Positions 3,510-29,715 of a stretch of 64,000 nucleotides of DNA are shown in pieces. The stretch's first letter is position 1. Every line of letters begins with the position of its first letter. This DNA is from Dioscorea cayenensis subsp. rotundata (lineage: Eukaryota > Streptophyta > Magnoliopsida > Dioscoreales > Dioscoreaceae), in contig NC_052473.1 in assembly GCF_009730915.1 (NCBI RefSeq), positions 18,930,100-18,994,099 on the forward strand, given 5' to 3'. The position numbers were made by a program, and so were the translations under genes. Below the pieces are notes generated by a model. It ran no database searches, had not been told where the DNA came from, and was given only the letters and a program-made list of their open reading frames with translations.

Positions 3510-4509
3510 NNNNNNNNNNNNNNNNNNNNNNNNNNNNNNNNNNNNNNNNNNNNNNNNNNNNNNNNNNNNNNNNNNNNNNNNNNNNNNNNNNNNNNNNNNN
3601 NNNNNNNNNNNNNNNNNNNNNNNNNNNNNNNNNNNNNNNNNNNNNNNNNNNNNNNNNNNNNNNNNNNNNNNNNNNNNNNNNNNNNNNNNNNNNNNNNNNN
3701 NNNNNNNNNNNNNNNNNNNNNNNNNNNNNNNNNNNNNNNNNNNNNNNNNNNNNNNNNNNNNNNNNNNNNNNNNNNNNNNNNNNNNNNNNNNNNNNNNNNN
3801 NNNNNNNNNNNNNNNNNNNNNNNNNNNNNNNNNNNNNNNNNNNNNNNNNNNNNNNNNNNNNNNNNNNNNNNNNNNNNNNNNNNNNNNNNNNNNNNNNNNN
3901 NNNNNNNNNNNNNNNNNNNNNNNNNNNNNNNNNNNNNNNNNNNNNNNNNNNNNNNNNNNNNNNNNNNNNNNNNNNNNNNNNNNNNNNNNNNNNNNNNNNN
4001 NNNNNNNNNNNNNNNNNNNNNNNNNNNNNNNNNNNNNNNNNNNNNNNNNNNNNNNNNNNNNNNNNNNNNNNNNNNNNNNNNNNNNNNNNNNNNNNNNNNN
4101 NNNNNNNNNNNNNNNNNNNNNNNNNNNNNNNNNNNNNNNNNNNNNNNNNNNNNNNNNNNNNNNNNNNNNNNNNNNNNNNNNNNNNNNNNNNNNNNNNNNN
4201 NNNNNNNNNNNNNNNNNNNNNNNNNNNNNNNNNNNNNNNNNNNNNNNNNNNNNNNNNNNNNNNNNNNNNNNNNNNNNNNNNNNNNNNNNNNNNNNNNNNN
4301 NNNNNNNNNNNNNNNNNNNNNNNNNNNNNNNNNNNNNNNNNNNNNNNNNNNNNNNNNNNNNNNNNNNNNNNNNNNNNNNNNNNNNNNNNNNNNNNNNNNN
4401 NNNNNNNNNNNNNNNNNNNNNNNNNNNNNNNNNNNNNNNNNNNNNNNNNNNNNNNNNNNNNNNNNNNNNNNNNNNNNNNNNNNNNNNNNNNNNNNNNNNN
4501 NNNNNNNNN
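3510..4509. other. Assembly gap, exactly 1000 N
   Basis: A run of 1000 N. The round number suggests a placeholder of unknown true length. It separates the ARF gene from the repeat block, so their real distance and even their adjacency are not proven. Confidence 0.98.
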
Positions 4510-5150
4510 TAAAACTAGCTCAAACACTTAATTAACACCATTTTTGTCATTTTTTATTTTATTACAAAATGAATATTGTTGTTGTTTAATAGATCCAATA
4601 AATAATCTAATTTTCTTTTTTTACTTATATATATTGTGTGCAGATTTACATGTGTTTCTTAGTCATTTGGTCTAATCTCAATGTACAACTTGTTAGTTTT
4701 ATGCCATCTCTAATAATACATATGGTCATATATCATTGTACAATTAGGCAGTTACATGTCATCCTTGCTGATGTATGAAGTCGGGTATTCTAATGATGTG
4801 GACACTTTAGTATTAAAATTTCCAACACCAGTTAAACACATAAAAATGGTTTTTGTTATCTTTATTTATTGTACATAAATCTTTTTATTTCTTATTTGAC
4901 AAACAAGTCATACTCTAATACTCTAATTCTCTCTCTACATTGTGTATAACTTATTAGCATATGACACCATCTCCGCTAATAAATACAGTCATATACCTAT
5001 ATAAACCCTTTCGGTTGCATGTCATCTCAACTCTAGTATAAAAAGTGTCACTCAATCTATTACTGTCTATTGTTAATTTATAAAACTGGACATTCACAAC
5101 AATTTTCATTTATGTCCTTACAGTTTGAAGCTTCCCTCTATCATGTACAA
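4510..5150. repeat. Degenerate ~0.4 kb tandem repeat, first visible stretch
   Basis: AT-rich and non-coding. It carries the same recurring landmarks found at 7050-9110, 11400-12039, 19590-20760, 25790-26050 and 30031-31700: an ACTTGTTAG/GG plus TT-ATGCCATCTC block, TATTCAATCTATTAATG, and CTAATGGTGTGGACACTTTA followed by TTGAAAATTTC. It aligns by eye with 8397-9110, so it is part of the duplicated unit. Confidence 0.7.
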
Positions 5151-5993
5151 GTTTTTACAATGAACTTCTTTTTGGAGAAAGGATTTTTTTATTTTGGTTA
5201 AATCAAAACTTCTTTATAAACTCTCCAGTGAAGAATCCTACCGCAATGGGTAAAGTTTGGCTAGATTTTGGAGCAAATGGTGCAGTTTGCCCTGAACCTT
5301 ATAGCATCAAATCTTACTTTTTTATACATCTCTAGTATCGTAACAAGACCTAATTTATATTTTTCATATAATAGCTATTTAGAAATAAATTTTTATTTTT
5401 GGCAATGTTATTTTTAGAAAAAATAAATATTTTCCCCCAAAATAATTGGGTTTACATAAACACGAATCTAGTCATATTCATAAATGTCGAGTTTAGTGAA
5501 AATTTATTGTCATATTTGCATTATACATCATTATTTTTTTAACAATATTTTACATTATTATGAATTTATAATAATTACATTTAAAAATAAAAAATGGTCT
5601 AAATATGAATTCTCAGCAGAACATTTAAAAAAAATGTGACTATTAATATACAAACAAAACTGAAACTCAAATGAAAAAATACTTGTTGTTAAACAAATAT
5701 TAATGACCATTAAGGAATTATAAGAAAATAGATTTAGCTCAACCCTACAAAAGCCCAAATCAAAGAAAAAACATAAAATAACATCTTAAGCAAATAATTC
5801 AAAAAATTAAGTAAATAAAAAGAGAGAATATATATAACAAAAAAAAAAGTTTTATTCCTGTAACCATTAAACCATAAGACAAACCCAAATGACTCTAATC
5901 ACCATTGATGGAATCATGGGCGACTACATCCGAAGTTAATTAAAAACAAAAGAAATACAAAAAGAAGCAAACATCAAATCTCACTCTAACAAC

Positions 5994-6040
<47 letters not shown>

Positions 6041-6070
6041 TTTCCTTATTAGCAATAATAAACACTAACC
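5150..6070. other. 3' flank of MADS copy 1, duplicated with copies 2 and 3
   Basis: AT-rich non-coding DNA that is nearly the same at 9170-10093 and, more diverged, at 24117-24853. Shared landmarks include GGTTAAATCAAAACTTCTTT, TAGTATCGTAACAAGACC and CAAAATAATTGGGTTTACAT. It ends in a long CT run at 5998-6034. Confidence 0.75.
5998..6034. repeat. (CT)n microsatellite
   Basis: A pure CT run just 3' of MADS copy 1. The same run sits at the same place beside copy 2 (10015-10053) and is absent beside copy 3. Confidence 0.95.
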
Positions 6071-6730
6071 CTAATCAAGGAAAATCCCATCAAACCATGC
6101 AATGTTATCATCATCACCATCATCAGGATTAACATTCCCACAAGAAGGTTGGTCAGACTGCTCCCCTATAATAACACCCTGCTCATTGAAACCCAAGCAC
6201 CAACCATGCATTCTAGCTGCACTTGTGGTCGATGATCCTTCTCCATTGGCAGCTATTTCAGCCTTCTTCTTCGCCACCTTCTCTTTCACCAACTTCAACT
6301 TGTTATCCACCAACCAACTTAAGTGTGACATTGTTTCAAGATCAAGCCTGCTGAGATCTTTCGCATCAAGACACTGCCCCAGCAACACTATATTCTCAAG
6401 CTCTTTGTTCTCCTTCTCTTGCTTAAGAGCCTATTCTTCGAGTTTCATGTTTTGTTGTTGAAGAAAACTCACCTAATTCACCATTTTCTTTCTTCTCCCC
6501 AGCTCCGGTTCTTGCATGAACGGGACCAAAACATCTATCGGGTTTAGTGTTAATGACCAGACTTCCAGCACCGTACCACGGCAAGGATAAATAATTGCAC
6601 AAGCTTTTACATCACACAGTGTGCTTAGATCTTTCACCTTCTTCAAGAGACCATTCTTCCTTTTCTTGTATGTTGCGTTCCTTGCGGCTGCCTTCTCGAT
6701 CCATGCAAGCTTCACCTTCACCCTTCCCAT
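6071..6730 (-). pseudogene. Type I MADS-box gene copy 1 (AGL80-like), interrupted by two stop codons
   Basis: A single-exon type I (M-gamma) MADS gene of 219 codons counted from MGRVKVKLAWIEK. The MADS domain (residues ~1-60, with TYKKRKNGLLKK and LCDVKACAIIYP) is open, but two in-frame TAG codons follow: at 6473-6475, where the sister copies have CAG (KKMVN then Q), and at 6431-6433. No frameshift is seen and the reading frame runs on to IAWFDGIFLD. As it stands only the MADS domain and a short tail, about 85 residues, could be made. An upstream in-frame ATG exists, but the family starts at MGR/MAR. The upstream TATA-like element reads TACATAAA rather than the TATATAAA of copy 3. Probably a dead gene; a truncated DNA-binding peptide cannot be excluded. 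Confidence 0.85.
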
Positions 6731-7049
6731 GGTAATGTTGATGTTGGTGTTTTTGCTTTGGAGGGGATGAGCTTCTTGGGGGCATTTGCATGAGTTTATG
6801 TAGAGTGGAGAGTGAGAGGGCATTAAGTGAAATAGTAAATGCTGAGAAAGAGGTTTATTGGCATTATATGACATATTTAATAAGCATAATGAAGCATATT
6901 TATGATAAAATTAAGGTTCTTTGTTTAGGGTTTAAGGTTTAGGGTTCAGATGGTAATTTTCTAGATTCACAAATCATGTTTCCTTTTCAATTTGGTAAGA
7001 GTATTAGGAAAGATTTTACTTTGGTGTATAATTATACACTTAGGCTCAT
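6731..7049. other. 5' flank of MADS copy 1
   Basis: Promoter-side sequence, nearly identical to 11092-11400. The TATA-like octamer is at 6795-6802 (minus-strand reading TACATAAA). No other gene is visible. Confidence 0.6.
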
Positions 7050-9110
7050 GGCATGTATCCTAATGGTGTTTACTAGTAGCTCAACAAATTTCTGACACAA
7101 GCTCATACCCTTAACTTTAATATATTTTATTTTTATTTTATCATGCTGAATCAAACATATTTTAATTTTGTTGTTTGATAAACACTATCTCTTATTGTCC
7201 TTTTCTTTTATTATTATTATTGGCACATTTACATGTGTTTCTTTTGTCGTTAGGTCTTTTGTTTGTATACAATATACAATTTGTTGGTTTTGTGCCATCT
7301 TGATCTATTAATAAATGTAGTCGTATCTCTGCATACAACTTGTCAGTTATCCATTATTTCTGTTAAAATATATGGTTAATATTTAACCTATTAATGGCCT
7401 TCATTGACATACAACTTCTTACGTACATGTTCACTCTTTCAAGATATCATAATTATTTACGTATGCCCTTTTTGTTACGATGATTATTGCCTAAAGGCTA
7501 ATGTGTGTCCTAATGGGTGCGAACACTTTATTACTATTTATGTATTGAAGATTTCCGACATCAATTCAAACACTTAACACTAATTTTTATTATTTTTTTA
7601 TTTTATTATGGATACTTAAAGGGAGCTCTTTGGTGTTTCATAAACACCATATACACTCTGATTTCCCTTTTGTTTTTATATATTGTCTGCATAGTTACAT
7701 GTATGTCTTTGTTATTTGGTCATTGTCGGTATACAACTTTTTGATTTTTTGTCATTCTTGCTAATATATGAGGTCATATATATCTATATATTTGTCGGTC
7801 ACATGCCATCTCCACTAATTTGTATGATTGTTAAATCTATTAATACCAGTTATTGAAATGCAACTTAATTTTGGTGTGCATGTTCCGTCCTTGAACACAT
7901 CCTTATTTACATGTAGCTTTTCTCCTACTATCATTATCCTTTTAGCCTAATGGGTATCCTAATGAATGTGGAAACTTTCTTACTATTAATGTGCCAAAAA
8001 GTTTTGACACCACTTTAAACACAAAATCTTTTGATTTTTACTTTATTGTGCATACTTAACATATTTTTTTTTATTAGATATACACCATGCATACCTTAAT
8101 TTCCTTATTTCTTTTTTTATATTATGTGTGTGTTTCTTTGTTGTTGGGTCATATATTTGTACATAAATTGTGAGTTTCATGGCATCTCTACTAATATGTA
8201 ATGTTGTATATTGATATATAACTTGTTGGTTACTTGTCGCCTTTGCTAATATTTAACTTATGGCGTACATGTTCAGTCTCTTACCACTTCTTTATTTGCA
8301 TGTAGCCTTCTGTTGCCATCATCATTTGCTTAAGGCGGATTTGCATCCTAGCTAGTGGAGTAGAGACTCTGTTACCATTTGTGAATTGAAGTTCCCTAAA
8401 ACTAGCTCCAACATTTAACACCATTTTTGTTATTTTTTATTTTATTGCAAAACAAATTTTGTTGTTGTTTAATAGATCCAATAAATAACCTAATTTCCTT
8501 TTTTTATTTATATAAATTGTGTGCAAATTTACATGTGTTTCTTTGTCATTTGGTATAATCTCAATGCAGAACTTGTTAGTTTTATGCCATCTCTAATAAT
8601 ACATATGGTTATATATCATTATACAACTAGTCGGTTACATGTCCCTAGTGATGTATGCAGTAATTTAATTTCTTAACACCCATTATTTATGTGCAACTTT
8701 TGCTTTATATGTTCGTTCCTTTAACACCACATTATTTACATATAGCTTTTCTGATGTCATCATATATTAATCCTTAGGACTGACGTGCATTCTAATGATG
8801 TGAACACTTTACTATCAAAATTTCCAACACTAGTTAAACACATAACAATGATTTTTGTTATTTTCATTTTATTGTACATAGTTAAATCCTTTTCTTTGTT
8901 ATTTGACAAACACATCATACTCTAATACTCTAATTCTATATATATATATATATATATGTACACATTGTGTACAACTTATCAACATATGAAACCATGTCCA
9001 CTAATACATACAGTCATATATATACTTATATAAAGCCTGTCGATTGTATGCCATCTCAACTCCAATATATAGAGGGTTATTCAATCTATTACTGTCTATT
9101 GTTAATTTAT
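7050..9110. repeat. Tandem array of ~0.4-0.46 kb degenerate repeats (about five units)
   Basis: The landmark CCTAATGG/TGTGGACACTTTATTACTATT recurs near 7052, 7509, 7946, 8348 and 8790, giving periods of roughly 400-460 bases. Between the landmarks the order of blocks is constant: a TTCCGACATCAATTCAAACACTTAACAC block, a TTTATT-rich stretch, ATTGTGTGCACATTTACATG, CATATGTCTGTATACAACTTGTTGG, CATGCCATCTCTACTAATAT, then TATTTACATATAGCCTTT. No ORF is conserved. I know of no family name for it. Confidence 0.75.
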
Positions 9111-10093: not shown

Positions 10094-11091
10094 CTAATCT
10101 AGGAAAATCCCATCAAACCATGCAATGTTATCATCATCCCCATCATCATCATTATTAATATTTCCACAAGAAGGTTGGTCAGACTGCTCCCCTATAATTG
10201 TTGAAATGTCCAAAAGGTAGACCTTAAGTAGCTACACTAGTTGTGCATGCATGGCTTATACGTTAACAGGGTTTAGTCTTATCTCTGTTATGTTGAGTCA
10301 ACTATCCTAGACTTAAACCAATATCATGTTTTATTAAGAAGGTGTTTGTACTGTTTAAGTTATCACGTGGGTTATGAGTTGGCTTTGCATTAATTGGCCA
10401 CCTCCATATATGTATGCTGAATGGGGTGAATGAGAGTCAGATCCTTTTTGGAATCTCATGCTAAGAGCCTGGAACTAAGTGCCTTGTCTTCTCTTGCTCA
10501 TATATTATTTTCCACTTCACTACAAACAATAATAACACCTTGCTCATTGTAACCCAAGCACCAACCATGCATCCCAACTGCACTTGCAGTTGATGATCAT
10601 TCTCCATTTGCAACCATTTTAGCCTTCTTCTTCACCACCTTCTCTTTCACAAAATTCAACTTGTTATCCACCAACCAACTCAAGCTAAATATTGTTTCAA
10701 GATCAAGCACACTAATATCTTTCCCCTCAAGGCACTACCCCAGAATCACTATATTCTTAAGCTCTTTGTTCTCCTTCTCTTGCTTAAGAGCATGTTCTTC
10801 AAGTTTCATGTTTTGTTGTTGAAGAAAACTCACCTGATTCACCATCTTCTTTCTTCTTTCTAGCTCAGATTCTTGCATGAACGGCACCAAAACGTCCATC
10901 GGGTTAGGTGTCGATGACCAGACTTCCGGTACCGTACCACCGCAAGGGTAAATAATTCCACAAGCTTTTACATCACACAGTGTGCTTAGATCTTTCACCT
11001 TCTTCAAGAGACCGTTCTTCCTTTTCTTGTATGTTACATTCCTTGGGGCTGCCTTCTCGATCCATGCAAGCTTCACCTTCGCCCTTCCCAT
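10094..11091 (-). pseudogene. Type I MADS-box gene copy 2, two stop codons and an LTR insertion
   Basis: Sister of copy 1 over its whole length. The MADS domain (MGRAKVKLAWIEKAAPRN, KKRKNGLLKKVKD) and coiled coil (FLQQQNMKLEEHALKQEK) are open. In-frame stops follow at 10735-10737 (CAG to TAG after IVILG) and 10597-10599 (GGA to TGA after NGE). The C-terminal coding part is then split by a 330-base solo LTR at 10199-10528; the tail resumes as IAWFDGIFLD at its far side. The stops differ from those of copy 1, so the two copies died separately. The TATA-like element at 11155-11162 is TACATAAA, as in copy 1. Confidence 0.88.
10199..10528. mobile_element. Solo LTR, probably Copia-like, with 5-bp target duplication
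   Basis: Begins TGTTGAAATGTCC and ends CACTACAAACA, the TG...CA ends of an LTR. It is flanked by ATAAT at 10194-10198 and 10529-10533. Copy 1 of the MADS gene shows the empty site (CCCCTATAATAACACC), so the insertion and its target duplication are directly visible. The length of 330 bases and the TGTTGAA start fit small Copia LTRs; family assignment is inference. No internal region remains. Confidence 0.88.
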
Positions 11092-12039
11092 GGTAGTGTT
11101 GATGTTGGTGTTTTTGCTTTGGAGGGCATGAGCTTCTTGGGGGCATTTGCATGAGTTTATGTAGAGTGGAGAGTGAGAGGGCATTAAATGAAATAGTAAA
11201 TGCTGAGAAAGAGGTTTATTGTCATTATATGACATATTTAATAAGCATAATGAAGCATATTTATGATGAAATTAAGGTTCTTTGTTTAGGGTTTAGGGTT
11301 CAGATGGTAATTTGCTGGATTCACAACTCATGTTTCCTTTTCAATTTGGTGAGAGTATTAGGAAAGATTTTACTTTGGTGTATCATTATACACTTGGGCT
11401 CATGGCATGTATCCTAATGGTGTTTACTAGTAGCTTAACAAATTTCTGACACAAGCTCATACCCTTAACTTTAACATATTTTATTTTTATTTTATCATGC
11501 AGAATCAAACATATTTTAATTTTTTGTTGTTTGATAAACACTATCTCTTAATGTCCTTTTCTTTTATTATTATTATTGGCATATTTACATGTGTTTTCTT
11601 TTGTCGTTAGGTCTTTTGTCTGTATACAATATACAATTTGTCGGTTCGTGCCATTTAGATCTATTAATATATGTAGTCGTATCTCTGCATACAACTTGTT
11701 AGTTATCCATTATTTCTGCTAATATATATGGTTAATATTTAACCTATTAATGGCCATCGATGACATACAACTTTTGACGTACATTTTCACTCTTTCAAGA
11801 TATCATAATTATTTACATATGCCCTTTTCGTTACCATCATTATTCTCTAAAGGCTAACATGTGGCCTAATTGGTAACACTTTATTACTATTTATGAATTG
11901 AAGGTTTCCGACATCAATTCAAACACTTAACACAAAATTTTCTTATTTTTGTATTTTATTATGGATACTCTTTGGTGTTTCATACACACTATATAACTCT
12001 AATTTCCCTTTTTTATATATAATAAATTCATTCGCATAG
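11092..12039. repeat. 5' flank of MADS copy 2 and about 1.5 tandem-repeat units
   Basis: Matches 6731-7690 closely. The similarity to copy 1 stops at TCGCATAG (ending 12039), immediately before the geminivirus-like block. Confidence 0.75.
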
Positions 12040-12928
12040 CCCGGGAGTTGCACGAGGATGGAAGTCTACATCTGCATGTTCTACTACAATTGGACGCCCG
12101 GGTACAGATCACCAATCATAGATTATTTGATCTAAGGTTACCTACATCATCCCTCATTTTCATCCAAACATGCAGAGTGTGTTAATGTGAAAGAGTATAT
12201 TGAGAAAAGAGGTGATTTCATAGATTGGGGTGTGTTTCAAATTGATGTCGGATGTTCGCAAGACGGTAGGCATGATTTATCAAGTGTCTATGAGGATGCA
12301 TTAAACGCTGAAATAGTGGCAGATGCTTTTCAAATCATCCGGGAGAAGGATCCCTTGGCATTTCTTTTACAATATCACAATTTAAATCGAAAACAGATCG
12401 TATTTTTGCCAGGCCTTTGGATCCTTACCATTCCGTTTGGAATTATTCAACCTTCATGGTTACTACGCGTATTCAAGCATGGCTACAATGTAACTTTCAG
12501 ATGAATAGCATTACATGGCCAAATGAAAATATTATAGGCCAACCAGTCTTATCCTTGAAGGATAGAGTCGTACTGGTAAGACGGCATCGATACGATCTCT
12601 AGGTAACCATAATTATATCGGTGACCATCTAGACTTTAATCATGTCACATTTTGCAATGATGTTTTGTACAACATAATTGATGATGTCGCACCAAATTAT
12701 CTACGTTTGAAACACTAGCGGGAACTCATTGGTGCTCAATGCGATTTGCAAACAAATTGTAAGTATTGTAAACCTATTCAAATAAGAAGTGGCATTCCAT
12801 CTGTTGTAATATGTAATCCCGGGCATGATTCCAGTCATAAAGCTTACCTAAATAGAGAGGAGAATCTCCCTTTATGTGACTGGCCATTACATAATACGCA
12901 TTTTGAGTTCATTGTATCTTCAATCTGA
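12040..12928 (+). pseudogene. Geminivirus Rep-like fossil
   Basis: Recognisable Rep landmarks in order: ELHEDGSLHLHV, which contains the HLH metal-binding motif II of rolling-circle initiators; EYIEKRGDFIDWGVFQID, matching the begomovirus stretch before the oligomerisation region; DALNAEIVADAFQIIREKDP and LLQYHNLN, matching the conserved ALN...IIKEK...QFHNLN segment; and a helicase-side block with NIIDDVAP and SGIPSVVICNPG, corresponding to the Walker-B-like DDV and the later GGIPTIFLCNPG motif. The fossil is broken. In the virus, Rep nicks the origin and unwinds DNA. Confidence is high because many separate motifs fall in the right order. Confidence 0.88.
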
Positions 12929-12968
12929 CTGTCGTTCCTAGGACTATGTCTTTTGTTACTTCCTTAAT

Positions 12969-13374
12969 AATGGATTACCAAACCGGCAAATTTATAAATG
13001 AGGCTTAGGCTAACAATGGCATTTTTATTTGGGATTTATTAAATCTCTTGTACTTTCATGTGATAGAGAATATCAACCGGCCATTTCCACACAATTGGGA
13101 ATGCATAATAATTGAAGTACGTTTCACCTACAATCTTTGTAGGTCCTTGGGGTTACACAAGTGTTGGTTGTTCTTCACAATCTGGACAGACCTCCAGCCT
13201 TTGACCACTAGTTTTCTTCATTTATTTCATTGTCATGTAATGTGGTTTTTACAGAGTTTTGGTGTTATTTCAATTAATTCTATCATTCAGGTTGTTGTAC
13301 ATTTTGTTCGCAAGTTCTTGAGTTATATCATTGATGTACAAAATACAGCTTATATTCAGTATGATTTATATTAA
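12969..13374 (+). pseudogene. Geminivirus REn (C3)-like fossil
   Basis: Follows the Rep-like stretch directly, on the same strand, as REn does in begomoviruses. Landmarks: a start like MDYQTGKFINEA, then NNGIFIWDLLNLLYF, VRFTYNLCRSLGLHKCW, FFTIWTDLQP and FGVISINSIIQVV, against the family pattern ENGVYIWEI-NPLYF, RFNHNLRKALGIHKCF, FKIWT, LGVISINNVI. The length is close to the ~134 residues usual for REn. It is broken. REn boosts viral DNA replication by contacting Rep and host PCNA. Confidence 0.85.
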
Positions 13375-13484
13375 TTAAGATTCACATTTTTTTATTACAC
13401 ATACCGAATGAGCAACATTATTATTCCGTTATTATACTACTACATCATTACATTACCTACTGCATTCATATTTCAACTTTATAT

Positions 13485-13895
13485 TTATCTATTGGACATT
13501 ATATTACTTGGGCCTTCATGGTTCCTATACTCTCCTCTTACTTCGATTTTCCTGTTTTGGGTTACCACCATATCTGTACTGTGCCCTTGGATGTCCCAAT
13601 ATTGTCCATTTCCTTTTTTTTTGTATTTTTTAATAGCATTGTTCTCCACTAATGTATATGCTTCGGCAACTTCTGCATCTTGCTTACCTGTGGTTGCTAC
13701 TACTCGAAAGCATACGGTATAATACTGCTTCTTCCTTCTTTGTAATGCATTGGCATAGTCTAACCATGACTGTGGGTTATCTTCAATAGCTTCAATAAGA
13801 CATATCCCATGCATACAATTAAGAAGCATACTTTGACCGTATCTCTTGAACAATAAATACACTGCGAAGATTTTCTCTTTCTCCATTTTGTTCAT
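13485..13895 (-). pseudogene. Possible geminivirus coat-protein-like fossil
   Basis: A 136-codon open stretch converging on the REn-like fossil, exactly where the coat protein gene lies in a begomovirus. The resemblance is weak: VYLLFKRYGQSM against the family's VMFFLVRDRRPYGTPM, IEDNPQSWLDYANALQRR against the FDNEPSTATVKNDLRDR stretch, and VVATTGKQDAE against the VTGGQYAS stretch. Position and strand are the better argument. It could also be unrelated chance coding. Confidence 0.45.
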
Positions 13896-15388
13896 TTTTT
13901 ATATTCAAATCCAGGCTTTATATATTTATTAATCTTCCTCTCTACGTTTTTCTTCCTCTTAGTCTTTCCCCCAACAATGTTGTATATTCTATTATAAAAT
14001 ATTGGTCATGGGCCCCATAACTCACCATTTCTACCACTCCAATAAATCTCTCTTTGTTTATTGATTATTTTATTATATTGTGGGTCTGACCTTTAATTCA
14101 AATCTTTGAGAGAATCTAGGTGGCAACTTTAATTTGAATCGACCAATCATTTGAGGACACGTGGACGTACGGATGGGAGCTCGCTACTATCCTCTCCAAC
14201 TCTCTTACGGCCTAATCCTTATGTCCGTAAACAACCCGTAAGCAGTTGGGCATAAATAGAACTTATGAGGATTTCTACGGCATTCTCTATTCTATCTTTC
14301 TATTCTTTTGGGGCCGGCCCTTGGAGGCAAGATTGAGGAAGAAAAGAGCTGAATCTCTAGCACTCTAAGGGTGATTTAGAGAGCAATTTGGTCCTACATT
14401 CAAGGAAATTGAAGATCATAGCCATTAAGCTCATCTTGACAACATGCGTGGAAGCTTCTTCGGCGACTCTTCATCCTAGGGATTGAAAAGAGGGTTTTCA
14501 TGGATCTCATGTCTTCCTCTATTCTTTGTATCTTGAATGTTTGCCCTCCATTAATGGAGGGTTAATTTGTAGATGTTTAGGCATAATTAAACTCTAGAGC
14601 TTATCTTTTTGACTTTGGTTGTTAGATCTTTGATGCTTTAATTGAATTCTTATTTGCAATCATATCTATTTGAATCCAATTGTGTGTTTGAATGCTTGGT
14701 TGCTAACGAGGCAAAAACCTTAGCTATCATGTTTGATGTGCTACGTGATGACTAGAAATACCCACCTAGCATAGACATACCGTGATTAGAGGAAATTGTG
14801 AGTAAGCCTGGGTATAGGGTACTTTGGATACTCTGTCTCCCCCAATTCTCTTGAGTGAGTTGTTGACAATCTCCACGCTCTTTGCAATCATGTCGAGTGG
14901 ATTTAGGAGAAATTACATTTTTGCTCTGTATTCGGATTATAGGTAATCTATCTCTTTGGGGGAGATTATCTACTTAAGAGATTGTCATTAGCTCATGGTG
15001 AGATTTCATAAAGTGTTAATGAGACTGTGTGGATGTCTATATCAGCTATGCACCTATTTAGTTGCATTTTACCTTAGAAATCGGAATTTTGTATAATTAT
15101 AAAAATCTTTCGATTCAAATAGGATTGCATACAACATTTATCCTATACTTCATAACCCTAGACGGATACTATTCCCGAACATCGTCTCTTCCCTTGATTT
15201 CTCTCTGGTTTTATTTCCATATTCTTGTTTTGCTTTCTTTTATTCACACACACTACTTCATTACTTAGGCTAATTTTTGGAATTAGGGTTATTACTAGTA
15301 TTCACTTTCTTCCTTGTGGATCGACACTCTGCTTTATGCACACTTTATTACGCGATCAGCATGTACACTAGCGTCCCTATCAAGTTTT

Positions 15389-15407
15389 TGGCGCCATTAC
15401 CAGAGAG
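15389..15407 (+). other. Primer-binding site of the Athila-like element
   Basis: TGGCGCCATTACCAGAGAG lies seven bases after the LTR end. TGGCGCC followed by a GTT/ATT-GCC pattern is the tRNA-Asp-type primer site common in Athila/Tat elements. Confidence 0.75.
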
Positions 15408-16125
15408 GATTAGTGATATTAGGAATATTTGAATATCTATCACTTTAGTCATTTATTTTCTAATTAATTATAAACCATCACTTGTTTCATCTTGAGCATA
15501 CTTGTTTAATCCTTTATGTTACCAATTATTTTCAGGCCATCCTTATGAAGATGATCCGTGCAGTTGTTGAACAGTTGGCCATTATGAATGAAAAGTTGGA
15601 TAAAGTTATCCAACAAAGTTACCGGGGGAGGAGTGATTATACTACAAAAAGTAGCAAGTAGGATATAATTACCTTATGTGACTAGTTGTTTTAGTTTGAA
15701 TCGAAACATTTTCATAATTCAAGCCAACAAATACTAGAAGAGGCATTGGATCACTTTATATGTTCGTTGGGAGAGCAGCGAGAGAGAGAGAGAGAGAGAG
15801 TTCAAAGTTTCATCTTTTTCAAAACTGCAGGATGTGATGCCAATGTTAGTAGGAAAGAAAGTGGAATATCAAGAGAATGACAGTGCCTTGTAATCACCAG
15901 AGATGGATGAACTAATTGTAGAAGAGCAATTGGTATTCAAAATGAGAAACTGAAAACATCAATTAATGAACCATCCGAACTCAAATTGAATAAACTGCTA
16001 TAGCATTTAGAATACGCCTTTTTGGCTTAGAATTCTAAACTAGCGGTCATCATCTCAGCTTATTTATCTGCTTAGCACAAGAAGAGGCTAGTTAAAGTTC
16101 TTAAGGAACATCAAGGGGAAATTGG

Positions 16126-18843
16126 TTGAAGATCTTTGACATCAATGGTATAAATCCTTTGTTTTGTACCCATAATATCTTAATGGAAAAGGATTACAAA
16201 CCAGTTGTCCAACCTCAGAGGAGATTGAATCAGAATATGAAGGAAATGGTAAAAGCTGAGGTGATCAAGTTATTGGATGCCGGGGTCATTTATCTGATTT
16301 CTGATAGTGCATGGGTTAGCCCCATCCAGGTTGTACCCAAGAAGGGAGGAATGATGGTTATCACTAATGAAAGGAACGAATTGATCCCTACTAGTACTGT
16401 TACAGGATGGAGAGTTTGTATCGATTATAGGCGGTTGAATGATGCTACAAGAAAGGATCATTTCCCTCTCCCATTCATCAATTACATGTTGGAACGACTA
16501 TCTGGGTATATGTTCTATTGTTTCTTAGATGGGTTGTCAAGATTTTTTTTAGATCCTAATCAATCTAGAAGATTAAGAGAAGACAACTTTCACATGTCCT
16601 TTTGGTACGTTCGCATATAGACGGATGCCTTTCGCCTTATGCAATGCGCCTACCACATTTCAGCGCTATATGACCGCCATATTAGATGACCTTATTGAAG
16701 ATATTATGGAAGTATTCATGGATGATTTTTTTGTCTTTGGGGACTCTTTTGAACAATGTTTAAACAATTTGAAGAAGGTCTTACGGAAGTGCGAAGAGAC
16801 AAACTTGGTTCTGAATTGGGAAAAATGTCATTTCATGGTTCGCGAGGGAATAGTTTTGGGGCATAAAATATCTCAAAATGGGATAGAAGTTGATCACGCG
16901 AAGATTGAAACTATAGAGAAGCTTCCATCTCTGTCCTCAGTAAAAGCTGTACGGAGTTTCCTTGGGCATGCTAGTTTTTACTGACGCTTCATCAAGGATT
17001 TTCAAAGATAACCCGGCCACTCACTAAGCGTTTAGAGAAGGACATGTCTTTTGAATTTTTCACGGAATGTCATTCAGCATTTGAGACACTCAAGAAGAGA
17101 CTAGTGAAGGCACCCATTATTATAGTCCCTGATTGAAATCTTCCTTTAGAAATCATATGTGATGCGAGTGATCACGCAGTCAAAGATGTCCTAGGATAAT
17201 GAAGGGATAAGCACTTTCAACCTTTATACAATGCTAGTAAAACTCCAAATGATGCACAAGAAAACTATACCACCACCGAGAAGGAGTTACTAGCTGTGGT
17301 TTTTGCATTTGAGAAATTTTGTCTCTATCTTATTTTGTCCAAAGTCATAGTTTTTACTGATTATTTTGCACTTCGTTATTTGTTTAGCAAAACAGATGCC
17401 AAACCAAGATTAATCATTTAAGTTTTGCTTTTACAGGAATTCAATGTGGAGATCAAGGATAAACGCAGTGCGTAGAATTTAGCAGTAGACCATTGGCAAG
17501 ACTTGAGCACCTGAGGGGAAAACATCGAGAAGAAGTGGACATCAACGATCCCTTCCCTGAAGAGCATCTCTACTCTATTAATGCATTGGGTAAAATCAAT
17601 ACACCTTGGTTTGCTGACTTTTTAAATTACCTTGTAGCTCGGGTCCTTCCCAACAATATAGCCTCACATCTTAAAAAGAAATTTTTTGCTAATGTGAAGT
17701 ATTATATATGGGATGACCCATACTTGTTTCGAGTTTGTGCGGATCAAGTCATCCAACGGTGTGTTTCACATGAAGAAGGATGGGAAATCATTAGGGAGTG
17801 TCATTTGGGACCCGCTGGAGGATATTATAGCGCCAACAAAATTGTTGTGAAAGTGTTTGAATTCTTTTGGCCATCCATTTTTCGTAATGCACAAAGGTAC
17901 ATTTAACGTTGTGACAATTGTCAACGCACAAGTAATATTTCTCGCCGTTTTGAAATGCCTCAAAACCCAATTATTAATTGTGAAATTTTTTATGTCTGGG
18001 GTATTGATTTCATGGGCCCTTTCCCCACTTCTTTTGGAAATAAATACATCCCGGTAGTAGTAAACTATATGTCGAGGTGGGTTGAAGCTCAAGCTTTGCC
18101 TTCTGATGATGCTAGAGTTGTTTGTAGGTTTCTGAAGAGGTTATTCTCTCGATTTAGGGCACCTAGGGCAATTATCAACAATAGAGGAACCCATTTTTGC
18201 AATGTGTAATTGGAAAATGATCTCATGTGATATGGAGTCACTCACCGAGTGGCTACTCCATACCATCCTCAAACTAGTGGCCAAGTAGAGGTCTCTAATC
18301 ATGAACTCGAAACGAATCCTACAAAAGGCAGTAACCATTTGTAGGAAGGATTGGTCCAAAAAATAGATGATGCTCTTTGGGCATATAGGACAGCTTATAA
18401 GACACTGTTGGGAAACTCGCCGTACCGGCTGGTCTATAGAATAGCATGTCATTTACCGGTGGAGTTTGAGCATAAAACCTATTGGGTAACTAGGTTTTTA
18501 AATTTTGATTTAGAATCCATGGGGGAAAAAAAGAAACTCCAATTAAGTGCGTTAGACGAATGGTGGAAAATGTCGTATGAAAACTCTCGTACTTATAAGG
18601 AACACAAAAATATACCATGGTCGATTGATTAAACCAGGATGTGAGTTCCGTGAGGGAGATCATGTGTTGCTTTATAATTCTCGTTTGAAACTATTTCCAA
18701 GAAAACATAGATCAAGGTGGACATGGCCATATTGCATTACTCTAGTATTACGCCATGGGGCCATTGAGATCACACATCCAAAACATGGCACATTTCAGGT
18801 AGGGTGGAGGCTAAAACAGTACTTCGGCGACACTTCTAATTAG
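16126..18843 (+). pseudogene. Athila-like pol fossil (RT, RNase H, integrase)
   Basis: The reverse-transcriptase stretch opens with the Athila hallmark PVVQPQRRLNQNMKEMVK and has VPKKGGM, GWRVCIDYRRLNDATRKDHF and MPFALCNAPTTFQRYM. The polymerase site appears as FMDDFFVFG. RNase H-like DASDHAV and the following region lie at about 17150-17420. Integrase shows VSHEEGWEIIRECHLGPAGG before its zinc-finger end and [10 protein letters not shown], then [10 protein letters not shown] in the core. Order RT-RNase H-integrase is that of Ty3/gypsy elements. Broken and not functional. Confidence 0.9.
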
Positions 18844-18849
18844 GTTAAG

Positions 18850-19585
18850 AACATTTTTCAAGAAAGGCCTCCTTGACATACGCATTTCAGATATGTCAAG
18901 CTCGTGACATTAAACAAGCGCTTCTTGAGAGGCAACCCAAGCAAGATTTTTCCGTGCTTTGTTGTGTTTTTAAGTCTTTAATTGTAGGTTTGTAGTCTCA
19001 TTTGAGTTTGCAATAAATTGCTCGGTCTGTTGTGAATCTTCATGTGTTGGTTGGGTGCTTATGATTATAGACACTTATTTTATGCTTCCTAGGTCATATA
19101 TGTATTTGAGCTTAATTGTAGTAAACATGGAAAACTGAACTCAAATTTTTCAGGACTCTTTTGGGCTACTTACGCCTGTAAGCACAATTGTAAACCTCAA
19201 ACGCAAGGGAAGTACAGAGAGTCTTATGAGTGCATTTACGATCCGTAAGTCCTGGTGAGAACAGTTTAGAGGTTTATTACAGGTGACTTACACCCATAAG
19301 TGAGGTCGTAAGGGTCATCCAAAGCATCTTACGGTTATACCTTCAACCCTTACGACTTATAACCTTCTAGGGAATACAGCCTAGGTTCCTTAAGGGTACC
19401 TTACTCCCGTAAGCCAGACTGTAAGAACAAAACAGAGAACTTTACGAGCTACGGTGGTCAACCCCTTATGGTCATAACCTAGGTAGTACATATATGAAGG
19501 AGTGGTTCTTAAGCTCCTACATTTCTGTTGGATGTATTAAGCAATAATCTAAATTAATGCTCTCTATTTTCAAAAAAATAAAAAA
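18850..19585 (+). other. 3' non-coding end of the Athila-like element, rich in CTTAC/GTAAG palindromes
   Basis: After the integrase part comes CGCTTCTTGAGAGGCAACCC, a signature seen downstream of pol in this lineage, then LTR-type sequence at 19140-19480 in which short inverted motifs such as CTTACGCCTGTAAG recur many times. The same motif cluster occurs in the solo LTR at 27180-27440 and 29720-29800. Confidence 0.7.
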
Positions 19586-19589
19586 AACA

Positions 19590-20970
19590 ATGGACAACTT
19601 GTTAGTTTCATGCCATCTCTAATAATACATATGGTTATATATCAATATACAACTAGTCGGTTACATGCCATCTCTACCGATGTATACAGTTATTCAATTT
19701 ATTAACACCCATTATTTATGTGCAATTTTTGGTTTATATGTTCATTCCTTTAACACCTTATTATCTACATATAGCCTTTATGATGCTGCCATTAACCCTT
19801 AGGGGACGTGTGGTTCACAGTAATGTGAAAACACTACCGCCTGTTATGTAGTAATCTGAAAAGATTACCACATTTGGATTAATGGCGGTACCAAGTTTGG
19901 ATTAATGGCGGTGGTAATATTGATGGTAATTTGTGATAATCAACCTTAGAAGACTACCAAGAAACTTGGTAATTCCATTACAACCAAAATAGGTGGCTAT
20001 GTTGGATTACCAAGTGGGTGGTAATCAGAAATGTTTTTTGAACAAATATGCCCTTTGTTTAAAAATAATAATTTTCATACTTTATTCGTTGGATAAAAAA
20101 AATTAAATTTGAATAAAATTATTTTCGGAATATGTTGAACTTCAAAATTTTAATTTTTTTTATTCAAAATTTTATTTACTTTAAATTTAAACTTGCACAA
20201 AATGGGTAGACAAAAGGGTATTTTGGAAAATTTAGAACATTACCAAGTTAATTACTATGTTATATGAGTTTCCAACCAAACATGGTTATTATAAAATACC
20301 ACAACATTCCTAGGCATATAACATTCCTGATCTCATTACCATGGTAATCTCATTATGTAGTAATATATCATTACCATGAACCAAACGGCCCCTTAGGATT
20401 GATGTGTATTCTAATGGTGTGGATACTTTACTACTAAAATTTCTAACACCAGTTTAAACACTTAACAATGATTTTCTTATTTTTTATTTTATTGCACATA
20501 TTTAAATTTGTTTCTTTGTTATTTGACAAACACAAGACTCTAATTCTATATATATATATATATTGTGTGTATGGTTACACATGTTTCTTATTCTGTCATT
20601 TGGCCATATGTATACAACTTATTAGCATTTCCTACCATATATATACGGTTATATATATATACAATTTTTTGATTCCATGCCATCTCATCTAAAATATGAG
20701 GTTATTTGATCTATTAATGCCTATAGTTAATTTATAAAAATGGACATCTACAACAACTCACCTTTATGTGCTTATATTGTGAAGCTTCCCTTCATCAAAT
20801 GCTAGGTCTTTGAGTGAGCTTCTTTTTTAGAGCAAAGACTTTTCTTATTTTAGCTAAAAGCTTCTTTCTAAACTCTTCAGCAAGAATCCTATGGTAGAGG
20901 GTGAGGTTTGGTAAGATTTTGGAGCAAAGGGTGAGGTTTAGCATGATTTTGGAGCACTAGATCTTACTTT
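19590..20970. repeat. Tandem-repeat units and 3' flank of MADS copy 3, with a MITE inserted
   Basis: From GGACAACTTGTTAGTTTCATG onward the sequence realigns with 4680-5330 and 8566-9350. The only large extra piece is the MITE at 19802-20392. The alignment continues to ATCTTACTTTTATATATA, where two solo LTRs interrupt it, and resumes at 24118. Confidence 0.75.
19802..20392. mobile_element. PIF/Harbinger (Tourist-like) MITE, 591 bp
   Basis: Ends are inverted repeats: GGGGACGTGTGGTTCACAGT on the left and, read from the right end, GGGGCCGTTTGGTTCATGGT. The element is flanked by TTA at 19799-19801 and 20393-20395. The homologous site at about 8766 (ATCCTTAGGACTG) lacks it, so the insertion is proven by an empty site. 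TTA target duplication and the GTTTGGTTCA ends fit PIF/Harbinger. No transposase is present, so it is non-autonomous. The inside carries short repeats around GGATTAATGGCGGT. Confidence 0.85.
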
Positions 20971-20978
20971 TATATATA

Positions 20979-22135
20979 TGATATGCACTTTGCGTATTAC
21001 ACCCAAGTGCACGGGTTATATATATGAAGTAGTAAAAGTGTACCTGAAGGTCGGATAGTCAAATCTATGGGAGATTGATACTAGTACTAATTGTTCTTCT
21101 GCTATCTAGCCAATGCAATCAAGTGATGTTGCTAAACCTAATTAGGAAGACAAAGAATCGAGACGACGAGATGGTGAATTGAGGGTAAAATCAAGGAGAT
21201 AAGATGGTACCTCAGACGCAATCCTCTAAAGACGTCTATGTAAATAGTTAACTATATTGACTATTGATTGAGCATTCTTGGACCGTGAGACTCCTAAAGT
21301 AGCCTGACACCTTTGGTCCACGCGATCAAACCCTAATTCCATTCAAGAAAACTCATATCCAATATAATAAAAGGGAAATCAAATACAAATAGTCTCAAGA
21401 TTCATAGTCCATAGCACCAATGAAGCTTTAGCCTCTAATATTATAGAGAATCCTAGCTACTACAACCAATATAAGAGACAAGATTAGAAGCATTATGAAA
21501 ACTTATCTCAAGATGATAGGTGACGGAGATTCTCGGATTGGAGATGACAATGCAGTCGATCTTGAACCCAAAGGGCCAAAGAAAAGATGTCAACTTGTCC
21601 TTCATTGGATGTCTTCAACCTCCAATCAAAACCCTAGGCATCAATGAAGATCTCAACAAAAAGAAACTCACTTTACAAACCCTAGCTATCTGATTTTAAA
21701 GGTAACGGGCTAGTGCACTATCATGCTTAATGTGTGTTTGACCTGTGTTGATTGTTGGCGACACCTGAAATTCAATTCTGTGAGAAAATTTGCCATCCAG
21801 AGATTTGCATGGCCAAAAAGCACATCGTGCTTATTGGGCACTCTGGGCATTAGAACCATGCTTAGGATGTGCTCTTCAATTTCTCCGTTCTAGTGCTTTG
21901 CACTCCCTGAACATGCCCATGAATGTTGAGGCCATGCTTTTCTTTGGAATTGTTCTTTAGTGCTCGTTCAGCTCAGAATTGCATCAGTTTTATTCCTTTT
22001 TGTCCTAAAACCTATTTACCTACACATTAAATATAAAATGCCCAGCATAGTACTAAAATAAAGAAAATAATGCAAGAAGACAAGCAATGTGCATGGATTT
22101 ATAATACAAAATATGAGCATTCCATGCACTCATCA
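20979..22135 (-). mobile_element. Solo LTR, Athila/Tat-like, 1157 bp
   Basis: Plus-strand ends are TGATATGCAC and GCACTCATCA, with ATATA at 20974-20978 and 22136-22140. Read on the minus strand it starts TGATGAGTGCATGGAATG and ends with AACCCGTGCACTTGGGTG followed by a TGCATATCA end, a pattern I know from Athila/Tat LTRs; orientation rests on this. No internal coding region. It interrupts the 3' flank of MADS copy 3, which continues at 24118. Confidence 0.75.
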
Positions 22136-22140
22136 ATATA

Positions 22141-24117
22141 TGTCATGCCCCAAGCTCTATAGAAGACGTCAACAAACCAGCCACATATGTAGTGGACTCT
22201 AACTTGTATACAAGGTCTCAAACAAATAAATTGATAAATACCAAAACATCAAATAATAATAATAAATACTAACTCAATATGCCATGTCAACAACACAACT
22301 ATAGAAATAGTACAAAAATACTTCAATTTCCAACAGAAGAAAATGCACAATAGGTTTGAGTTTGGAGTACCACATCACCCCTAATACAAACTACATAAAT
22401 GGATAAAATTCAACACAACAATACAAAGGAATGGCATACATAACAGCAAGGACTACAATACTAGGGAGTGGCATCTACAGTAGTAAGATGACTACCCATG
22501 TTGAGATCCTACACCCTTACAATCGGTAGCTAATCCCTACAATCTTTAAAAAAAAGCAACAAACTAGTAAGCTCATAAGCTCAGTAAGTACCTAAAAGAA
22601 GAAAATAGAAGAAGAAAAGAAATATGGAGTTTTAATCAACAATAACCAAAGTAGATACATCAAATATAACTCATAAACAACATGTGCTAATGGGAAGTAT
22701 ATTTATTAATCAAACCAATAAACTTAGGAAATCACAACACACCCTCTGAAAGATCCAGAACATAAAACAAAATAAATAATGAGATATTCCACTTCATAGC
22801 CAGAGTAAAACAACATTTCTAGATGTGTACATCGCATACCCAATCACACCATCTATATGGCCCACACTATCTATCATCACACCTTCACACAGTCATACTA
22901 TCCCTTTCCCATGGGTACCTTGATCAAAATATTAGACTCATATCGATATGGCCAAATGCACATCTTCATTTGGTTGAGCAATATAATATATACTAGCATA
23001 TAGGAGGCCAATTTAGAATTTCCAAAAAATACACATAATCACCAGCATAAAATAAATAACCCACAACATTCACCAAGATAACCATGTAAATTCTTAGAAC
23101 ATACATGTATGAAATACTCAACATGATATGAATACCCTACCAAGATATCATACAAACAACTTCCAAAATTTCCAATATAATACCTCCACAAGAATAGGGT
23201 AACTATACATGTATACATAGAAGGAGAATATCATAAGTACCTAAAAGAAATGATAATTCAAACTAAGAAATATAATTACTCACGAAAGAATATGTACATA
23301 ACAAACCTTACCTATGTGCATCCATAAATTCATGCAAAACATATATATGTATATAGGCAATTTCAGAGATTACTACACAAGACAAGATCAAACAGGGTAG
23401 AATCGTATCTTAAGAAAATTTCTAAGCACAACAACATAAAAGAAATTTCCAAAATCTCTTCCACTTGACAAAGTCAATAATGAGCGTGATTGTAGGATGC
23501 ATGACATAAATTTTCAGCTAAAAATCACCATGAATTCTTAAGCTTGGAATTGAGAGCATGAAAACTACCACACAGAATTTGGAAAGATTTCAAAAGAATA
23601 CAAAAAATCTTTAAGACACTATTTAGGATACTTCCTAAAGTAGACCCGAGTTGAGATGAACTATTTTCTCTGTGACTCACTCTATCGACTAGCAACATCT
23701 CTATTCTTTTCAACTCCCCACTTCAATTCCTTCCTTTTCTCCTTTTCTTCTCTTCTCCTTCCCTCCTCTCACTTCCTTTCTTTTCCTTAATCCTCCTCCC
23801 TTCATAAACTAGCTTTCCAAACCCCAATGAAACGCTTTCCCCTAAGTCAAAAAAATCCAAACATCTAAAGCAAAGCCACAACAAAAGAACGAGAATCCAA
23901 TGCTACAATATTGTATATGAAGCTGATGCCATAATACTGTATCATACTGTAGAAAAGTATAGTACAAAATGGAAATGCTTTCTTTCCATGCATAGTAATA
24001 CTCATACAAAAATCAAGCTATTTAAATCGAAGGGTTTTACTAGGAATACTCGTGAAAACCACATCTTCAAATTGGAAGACTTTATATATAAAACCTAGTT
24101 CCAAGGTGGGCATTACA
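22141..24117. mobile_element. Solo LTR, possibly Tekay/Del-like chromovirus, 1977 bp
   Basis: Begins TGTCATGCCCC and ends GGGCATTACA, an imperfect inverted pair typical of Tekay/Del LTRs. Flanked by ATATA at 22136-22140 and 24118-24122. The left ATATA is shared with the right target duplication of the preceding solo LTR, so this element landed in that duplication. No coding sequence. Family assignment rests only on the ends and the length of about 2 kb. Confidence 0.72.
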
Positions 24118-24853
24118 ATATACCTCTATCAAAATGGGACCTAATTTATATTTTAGTAGTATTGTTATTTAGAAATAATTTTTATTTTTGGCAATATTAT
24201 TATGAGAAAAAATGATTTTTTTCAAAATAATTAATTCTACATAACATGAATCTAGTCATATTCATGAATGTCAAGTTTAGTGTAAATTTATTGTTAAATT
24301 TGTGTTGTATATGTTATTACCCATTTTGTTTTCTTTAACATTTTGCATTTTTATGAATTTATATATCTTGTTGTTTTTAATTAAAATAATAATAATAAAA
24401 GTTGGTTTAAATACGAATAGCCATCAGAGCATTTAAGAAAAAAATGTACCTATCAATAAACCAACAATGCTGAAACTAAGATAAAAAAAAATATAGGTAA
24501 TTTTGTAGGAGAATAATTTTGTTAGAAAAATAAATAAATATGAATTAATGATCATTAAAGCATAATACAAACATAGCTTTTAAATCATCCCTACAAAATT
24601 CCAAATCAAAAGAAAAATATATAAAATAACAACTTAAACAAACAACCCATAAAAACAAATAAATAAATAGAGAATATAGCAAGAACCTGGTTTTACTCAT
24701 ATAACCATTAGATCATAACACAAACCCAAATAACTCTAACCACCATTGAATACATAAGAAGTTCAAGTCAAAAGAAAAACACGAAGAAACAAAGATCAAA
24801 TCACTCTAGCCACTCTTATCTCTTCTCCTTATTACCAATAATAAACCCTACCC
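24118..24853. other. 3' flank of MADS copy 3
   Basis: Homologous to 5345-6070 and 9372-10093 (GACCTAATTTATATTTT, TTTAGAAATAA, TTTTTATTTTTGGCAAT). More diverged than those two are from each other, and lacking their CT run. Confidence 0.75.
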
Positions 24854-25513
24854 TTAATCAGGGAAAAACCCATCCAACCATGCAATGTTATCATCATCAC
24901 CATCATCATTATTAATATTCCCACAAGAAGGTTGGCCAAACTTCTCCCCTCCAATAACATTGTGCTCATTGAAACCCAAGCACCAACCATGCATCCCAAC
25001 TGCACTTGTCGTTAATGATCCTTCTCCATTGGCAGCCATTTCAGCCTTCTTCTTCACCACTTTCTCTTTCACCAACTTCAACTTGTTATCCACCAACCAA
25101 TTCAAGCTTGATATTGTTTCAAGATAAAGCCCATGAAGATCTTTCCCCTTAAGACACTGCCCCAGCAACACCATATTCTCAAGCTCATTGTTCTCCTTCT
25201 CTTGCTTAAGAGCATGTTCTTCAAGTTTCATTATTTGTTGTTGCAAAAACCTCACCTGATTCACCATCTTCTTTCTTCTTTCCAGTTCTGGTTTTTGCAT
25301 GAATGGCACCAAAACGTCCATCGGGTCTGGTGTCGATGACCAGACTTCCGGTACATTACCACCCCAAGGGTAAATAATTGCGCAAGCTTTTACATCACAC
25401 AGAGCACTTAGCTCTCTCACCTTCTTCAAGAGACCATTCTTTCTTTTCTTGTATGTTATGTTCCTTGAGGAGTCCTTCTCAATCCATGCAAGCTTCACCT
25501 TCACCCTGCCCAT
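24854..25513 (-). CDS. Type I MADS-box transcription factor, M-gamma (AGL80-like), intact copy
   Basis: A single-exon protein of 219 residues from MGRVKVKLAWIEKDSSRN. The MADS domain (residues ~1-60) shows TYKKRKNGLLKKVREL and LCDVKACAIIYP, the M-gamma pattern of Arabidopsis AGL80, then EVWSSTPDPMDVLVPF. A coiled-coil stretch follows (VRFLQQQIMKLEEHALKQEK, about residues 86-110). The C-terminus is acidic, with NINNDDGDDDNIAW. Family members bind DNA as M-alpha/M-gamma heterodimers and mostly act in the central cell and endosperm; that role is inferred here. I start at MGR because the 31 codons upstream do not resemble the family and contain the promoter-proximal region. A TATATAAA lies about 65 bases upstream. 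It is the only unbroken member of the three. Confidence 0.92.
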   Translation of the reverse strand: MGRVKVKLAWIEKDSSRNITYKKRKNGLLKKVRELSALCDVKACAIIYPWGGNVPEVWSSTPDPMDVLVPFMQKPELERRKKMVNQVRFLQQQIMKLEEHALKQEKENNELENMVLLGQCLKGKDLHGLYLETISSLNWLVDNKLKLVKEKVVKKKAEMAANGEGSLTTSAVGMHGWCLGFNEHNVIGGEKFGQPSCGNINNDDGDDDNIAWLDGFFPD

Positions 25514-25577
25514 GGTAATGTTGTTGTTGGTGTTTTTGCTTTGGTGGGGATGAACTTCTTCTGGGCATTTGCATGGG

Positions 25578-25585
25578 TTTATATA
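25578..25585 (-). promoter_or_regulatory. Putative TATA box of MADS copy 3
   Basis: TATATAAA on the minus strand, 65-72 bases before the chosen ATG. The two dead copies have TACATAAA at the same place. Functional role is inferred from sequence and distance. Confidence 0.55.
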
Positions 25586-25599
25586 GAATGGAGAGTGAG

Positions 25600-26050
25600 A
25601 GGCCATTAAAGGAAAGAGTAAATGCTAAGAGAAAGAGGTTTAATGGCATTACATGAGACATTTAATAATCATAATGGAGAATGAAATTAATGTTTATAAT
25701 GAAAGGTTCTTTGTTTGGGTTTTGTAGATGGTAATTTGTTGGATTGACAACTCATGTTTCCTTTTCAATTTGTTGAGAGGCCTAGGAAATCTTACATTTG
25801 GGGCATCATCCTAATATTGTTGATGCCTTATTATTACTATTTGTATATTGAAAATTTCTTATACCATTTCAAACGCTTAACTCTAGTTTTCTTATATTTG
25901 TTTTATTTTGTATACTTAATCATATTTCTTTGTTGTTTGATAAATGAAATATCTTAATTTCAATTGTTTTTTATAATGTGTGCACATTAATATGTGTCTT
26001 TTTGTCGTTAGATCATATGTCTGTATACAACTTGTTGGTTTCATGCAACC
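25600..26050. other. 5' flank of MADS copy 3 with part of a tandem-repeat unit
   Basis: Aligns with 6830-7300 at lower identity (CTCATGTTTCCTTTTCAATT, CTGTATACAACTTGTTGGTT). No gene. Confidence 0.65.
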
Positions 26051-27497: not shown

Positions 27498-27776
27498 TGA
27501 CGCAGCAGATACGCAGTTCTAATCCAAGAACTCACACTCAAATATGAGCAAACCAGAAAAAATCAATTTCAATTCATTGATCCCCTTTTCACAAAACCCT
27601 AAAACAATATTTATAAATCTAAACTAAGGACAAAATAGTAAATAAAACTAAAATAGTTACAAATTGATGGATAATAAACTAACTAATAAATCTAAGATAA
27701 TTACAAAAATTAAACAAAAACTACTTTGAATATTTAAATTTTAAATCCTAAAATCTTTAGCCACTATGTTGCGTCA
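27498..27776 (-). repeat. LTR (3' side) of the gag-only element
   Basis: 279 bases, TGACGCAGCAG...TTGCGTCA. Its right border meets the polypurine-like tract. Confidence 0.88.
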
Positions 27777-27804
27777 TTCACCGCCACTTGCGAAAAACTT
27801 GACC

Positions 27805-29334: not shown

Positions 29335-29437
29335 TCATTGCAACTGCTTCGTCCCCTAGAGGGGCTCTAGCCTCCTGATCACCATCACGAAGACCATCAC
29401 CATCGCCACCAGTTGACATCCTCTCCCTGATACCACC

Positions 29438-29715
29438 TGACGCACGCGGATACGTAGTTCTAATCTAAGAACTCACGCTCAAATAAGTGTAAACAAGAAA
29501 GTCAATTTCAATTCATCGATCCCCTTCCACAAAACCCTAAAACAATATTTATAGATCTAAACTAAGGACAAAATAGTAAATAAAACTAAAATAGTTACAA
29601 ATTATCGGATAATAAACTAACTAATAAATCTAAGATAATTACAAAATATTAAACAAAAACTACTTTGAATATTTAAATTTTAAATCCTAAAATCTTTAGC
29701 CACTATGTTGCGTCA
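29438..29715 (-). repeat. LTR (5' side) of the gag-only element
   Basis: 278 bases, TGACGCACGCGG...TTGCGTCA. It is next to the tRNA-iMet-type primer site. Confidence 0.88.

Follow-up and report, generated by a model that had tools for sequence, protein, structure and literature searches.

The 64,000-base stretch of DNA that was analysed (the window) very probably carries a non-functional endogenous geminivirus-like element, a single copy of a truncated Rep gene without its N-terminus followed by REn, left by an extinct or unsampled REn-bearing geminivirus. At the level of the sequence, the homology, gene order, strand, broken frames and left chromosomal flank of the element are directly evident. 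A sequence-only reading had drawn the viral copy at 12040-13900. A viral stretch does lie there, but detectable homology covers only approximately 12024-13374 on the plus strand, where Rep precedes REn in the viral order and on the viral strand. Beyond about 13374 no viral homology was detected, and nothing between 13375 and approximately 13.9 kb could be assigned. The features are collected in Table 1.

Table 1. Features of the element and of its host flanks (positions in the window)
Feature	Position	Strand	Basis
Host tandem unit A, free of viral DNA at the equivalent position (after 7682-7694)	4510-8396	.	Self-comparison
Host tandem unit B, bearing a MADS-box copy and flanking the insertion on its left	8397-~12021	.	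Self-comparison
Left host/virus junction zone	12022-12039	.	Host homology and Rep-like reading overlap
First piece of the Rep catalytic domain with HLH (motif II), lacking the N-terminal part	12024-12161	+	Gemini_AL1 35-81 of 113
Rep second piece, other frame: end of catalytic domain and IIREK helix-4-like motif	12148-12390	+	Gemini_AL1, Gemini_AL1_M, 1l2m
Rep third piece (central domain)	12369-12512	+	Gemini_AL1_M, below cut-off but collinear
Rep helicase region, Walker-A-like SRTGKT	12566-12715	+	By eye
Rep C-terminal region, CNPG	12719-12928	+	By eye and by position
Nearly full-length REn with an in-frame stop close to its start	12970-13374	+	Gemini_AL3; start 12970 from reading frame
Intact 136-residue ORF, convergent with REn	13485-13895	-	No family match; TATA-like sequence just upstream (by eye)
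Rest of the insertion with truncated Ty3/Gypsy-type retroelement (reverse transcriptase, weak integrase remnant)	13896-19587	+	RVT_1, Integrase_H2C2
Host tandem unit C, interrupted at ~20979-24138, host sequence resumes	19588-~26046	.	Self-comparison

Homology of the Rep and REn pieces

Stop-free pieces were scanned singly against Pfam in 35 scans (8, 10, 10 and 7, three of the last seven being repeats), with E thresholds that varied among the scans (1, 5, 0.01 and 10). A Gemini family was returned in four of them, all inside the Rep-REn stretch, and in none of the remaining 31, which include the two pieces given to Rep by eye. The piece that bears the HLH motif, 12003-12182 on the plus strand, matched Gemini_AL1 with an E value of 1e-16 and 61.4 bits, well above the curated cut-off of 24, indicating a geminivirus Rep catalytic domain. 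The best solved-structure match for Rep was PDB entry 1l2m, labelled 'Rep protein' and which we take to be a begomovirus Rep; its E value was 1e-10 with the first piece and 0.0016 with the second. The piece at 12136-12501, containing DWGVFQID and IIREK, resumed the Gemini_AL1 profile at positions 82-113 (E 0.0029, below the curated cut-off) and also matched Gemini_AL1_M at positions 10-43 (E 0.052, below cut-off), while the piece at 12312-12602 matched positions 37-85 of the 107 in Gemini_AL1_M (E 0.0045, again below cut-off). These three sub-cut-off matches are collinear, their profile positions succeeding one another in order. The helix-4 motif of this Rep reads AFQIIREKDP.

The C-terminal half of Rep was assigned by eye, and should be read as a putative assignment; neither the piece at 12566-12715 nor the CNPG-bearing piece at 12719-12925 had a match in Pfam or PDB. 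All four motifs that the sequence-only reading had named (HLH, DWGVFQID, IIREK and CNPG) were found where it had put them. Its REn-like stretch, said to follow Rep on the same strand, was borne out as well: the piece at 13009-13371 matched Gemini_AL3 (REn) with an E value of 1.2e-20 and 74 bits (cut-off 24.1), covering positions 13-113 of 119, and had no match in PDB. The element has the begomovirus arrangement of REn (C3) after Rep, although REn occurs in some genera besides Begomovirus too.

The remaining viral genes were sought by Pfam. Five stop-free pieces from 12852-13208 gave no TrAP (C2), although short decayed pieces could escape detection; C4 was not found in two scanned pieces; and the scanned pieces of 13375-14064 contained no Gemini family that could represent the coat protein. 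The origin nonanucleotide TAATATTAC has no exact occurrence in the 64,000 bases, compared with 1.31 expected by chance. This motif belongs on the virion strand, and the one single-mismatch form between 11500 and 14500, at 13499, was taken as a chance occurrence since it lies on the Rep strand. The earlier term 'begomovirus' is only partly supported: that branch is consistent with REn and with a helix-4 motif close to the known one, but TrAP, the coat protein and the origin were not found in the pieces and window searched. Scans of the viral_contigs collection with Rep or REn pieces gave 8, 3 and 109 pattern matches, of which none was confirmed. Because the Rep and REn pieces themselves retrieved no relative, this collection is uninformative here.

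Damage to the viral genes

Rep is spread over three frames, with at least three frame changes and two in-frame stops, and REn has one in-frame stop near its start. This count, which was made by eye, gives a minimum of three frame breaks plus three stops for the two genes together, or at least six disabling lesions, in agreement with the earlier description of a copy broken several times. Moreover, the Rep catalytic domain lacks the first 34 positions of the profile. Judged from these frames, neither Rep nor a full REn can be made from the element in its present state. A suggestive reading of the Rep N-terminus at 11897-12019 was rejected, since that stretch is part of a host repeat with several further copies in the window.

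Host flanks and the point of insertion

Comparison of the window with itself revealed a tandem array of MADS-box units, designated A, B and C. The segment 10529-12021 of unit B is 90.8% identical to 6168-7682 of unit A, and the similarity is firm up to 12021. A gapped alignment with unit A extends to 12039 by way of a common GCATAG. The start of the Rep-like reading, 12024, lies inside this extension. Because the host alignment and the Rep reading overlap, the junction was placed within 12022-12039 and not at an exact base; the junction proposed previously, 12039/12040, falls on the edge of this zone. The overlap possibly reflects microhomology at the left junction.

In unit A, no viral DNA interrupts the repeat at this point, and the sequence is similar to other copies of the repeat. 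For this reason, unit A was read as an empty site, apparently a paralogous one within the window, but unequal crossing-over between the repeats could imitate such a site. The element is joined to host sequence on its left, the flank being a tandem copy with an apparently empty counterpart in the window, and it looks chromosomal, as had been suggested.

Unit B gave an SRF-TF match on 10735-11271 with an E value of 1e-14. SRF-TF was matched in the MADS copies of units B and C; the main piece of unit A was left out of the scan. Other host genes recognized in the window are SBP-domain, GH17-X8 and Na/Ca-exchanger genes. The MADS-box copies of the three units are presumably AGL80-like. One of them, at 24857-25624, is an open frame of 256 residues, and each of the remaining copies has been either shortened or split. 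A run of exactly 1000 N at 3510-4509, representing a scaffold gap, hides the sequence to the left of unit A. Degenerate repeats of about 388 bp occupy 30030-31200, where Tandem Repeats Finder (TRF) reported about two copies at 30155-30873; related sequences make up the AT-rich tails of the MADS units, among them the target of the viral insertion.

On the right, 8562-8787 aligns with 19588-19810, and the similarity starts sharply at 19588, where the host unit resumes. The 7.57 kb between the host flanks comprise the viral genes, the stretch with the minus-strand ORF and a truncated Ty3-type element. The latter was recognized by RVT_1 (E 6.7e-18) and by the integrase zinc-binding family Integrase_H2C2 (E 0.012, below cut-off). 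Together with the SRF-TF matches, this substantiates the MADS copies and the retroelement that had been named as neighbours of the virus. The label 'Athila-like' given to the retroelement is a putative one based on the primer-binding-like TGGCGCCATTA at 15389, one of 10 matches in the window with at most two mismatches, where 2.65 would be expected. No second LTR of the Ty3-type element was found when the window was compared with itself. To locate its left edge, the retroelement was compared with a second, opposite-strand element at 26035 and up; apart from short matches at chance level, only two stretches, within 14533-14827, could be aligned. The Ty3-type element is now a neighbour of the viral DNA and may have arrived earlier, later or jointly with it.

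Two further structures were observed on the minus strand. The segment 26035-26944 is the end of a second LTR-like sequence, in which two stretches are 70-75% related to 14533-14827 in the opposite orientation. At 27498-29715, there is a small retroelement-like structure with a pair of repeats of about 280 bp, 93% identical and 1.9 kb apart, between which weak gag and zinc-knuckle matches were obtained. A primer-binding-like TGGTATCAGGGA is located at 29424-29435, but matches of this kind are no more frequent in the window than chance would predict (3 against 3.95). A tRNA search and a search of Rfam at the gathering score gave no match.

Alternative explanations

The possibility was considered that a free (episomal) geminivirus or a contaminant had been misjoined into the plant assembly. 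The 1000-base gap does mark a scaffolded draft assembly. However, the window has no other run of at least 10 N, and there is none at the element; moreover, the viral homology is truncated inside Rep, and Rep and REn bear the six or more disabling lesions counted by eye, so that a misjoined virus is very improbable. Rep domains of this class are common to several replicons, and a weak match (E 0.045) was obtained with the generic Rep profile PF23343, as might be expected if the Rep-like sequence had come from a genomovirus, a phytoplasma plasmid or a Helitron. The geminivirus profile is far stronger at 1e-16, and the gene that comes next is REn, known from geminiviruses, at 1.2e-20. Such a non-geminivirus source is hardly credible.

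A different question is whether everything from 12022 to 13.9 kb is viral, the minus-strand ORF at 13485-13895 being a virion-sense gene without a known relative. The ORF is placed where virion-sense genes sit, convergent with REn and with the TATA-like sequence upstream. Its length was compared with a chance model, in which 2000 stretches of 926 bases were simulated for each composition and searched for stop-free runs of at least 137 codons; such runs appeared in 79 of the 2000 with the local composition and 22 of the 2000 with the composition of 11.5-20 kb, so that the ORF may have arisen by chance. Moreover, it matched no geminivirus family in Pfam, the window has no exact TAATATTAC, and the ORF could equally be explained as host sequence or as a product of chance, making an entirely viral stretch unlikely. 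Nothing beyond noise was obtained for it in Pfam or PDB, and its identification as a coat protein, V2, C4 or movement protein was rejected because none of these was found there. In viral_contigs it gave 3 pattern matches, none confirmed, in a collection that missed relatives of Rep and REn too. A bolder version, in which the element preserves an unsampled geminivirus lineage and the ORF is its virion-sense gene of about 136 residues, still open and taking the place of the movement and coat proteins, is likewise unlikely. The preferred reading remains a truncated Rep and REn copy.

Origin and age

Such integrations are usually explained by end-joining that captures geminivirus DNA, which is located in the nucleus. 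For this Rep-REn copy, nuclear viral DNA would have been captured through illegitimate end-joining at a chromosome break, probably within the tail of degenerate repeats that follows a MADS-box copy. This would have taken place once that MADS unit had been duplicated, and the element may then have decayed neutrally. End-joining is consistent with a Rep that is cut off internally and with the short overlap that may exist at the left junction. Most likely the element does nothing today, except that it may be targeted by DNA methylation and small RNAs.

Provided that unit A is truly an empty site, the viral insertion is younger than the duplication that separated A and B. Units A and B differ by a K2P distance of 0.069-0.102 in four segments (one nested in another), or approximately 0.035-0.051 per lineage. 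The six lesions, counted over about 1305 bases of coding sequence, were converted into substitutions per site since integration with three assumed indel rates, which gave 0.028-0.056, with 95% ranges jointly extending from 0.010 to 0.123. The divergence of the duplication and the lesion-based age are compatible. Substitution rates of 7e-9 and 1.5e-9 per site per year give central ages of about 4-8 and 18-38 million years, respectively, but these rates may not be those of the host. Weight is therefore placed only on the relative dating. For such dating, the paralogous, apparently empty site in the window provides a relative upper age bound without recourse to a second species.

Comparison with known endogenous geminiviruses

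The sequence-only reading held that such copies are described from only a few plants and that the element hints at its host. The first statement is superseded by a 2020 survey, in the account of which Rep homologues are reported from 17 of 134 genomes (one then set aside) and from 42 angiosperm species overall (PMC7758297). Given that number of species, the element says little about the host. In the same account, 1601 of 2165 extended genomic loci bore other geminivirus domains (PMC7758297). The window element is therefore a further, possibly already catalogued, case of a well-surveyed kind. No publication that could be tied to this locus emerged from the literature search, a result that does not itself indicate novelty. 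As argued in PMC5014472, fossil copies can be used to calibrate the deep history of geminiviruses.

Macadamia elements, as described in PMC8626973, likewise consist of begomovirus-like genes that have decayed, contain stops and lie in a plant chromosome. The macadamia locus is more complete, having AC2, AC4, two AV1 copies and an origin (PMC8626973). Seventeen of its 21 or 22 primers were compared with the window and had no close match, the best showing 5-10 mismatches in 20-28 positions.

The yam elements EGV1 and EGV2 share with the window element the presence of Rep and REn and, in the description given in PMC5014472, have no CP and no TrAP, neither of which was detected here. The helix-4 motif given there, ALxIIRExxP, differs from that of the window by one residue. 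For EGV1, Rep is predicted to be full length, an origin with TAATATTAC and tandem repeats is described, and Rep is reported to be maintained by selection (PMC5014472). In contrast, the window element has a truncated and broken Rep, no origin was found for it and it occurs in one copy in the window. As regards the origin it resembles EGV2, which according to the same source is without a detectable one (PMC5014472). The GRD sequences of Nicotiana likewise contain a degenerate, truncated begomoviral rep in the chromosome (PMC5014472). They are reported to have an origin-like sequence and, unlike the window copy, to include several classes in multiple direct repeats (PMC5014472). REn does not figure in the description of GRD given in that source, whereas it is present, and near full length, in the window element.
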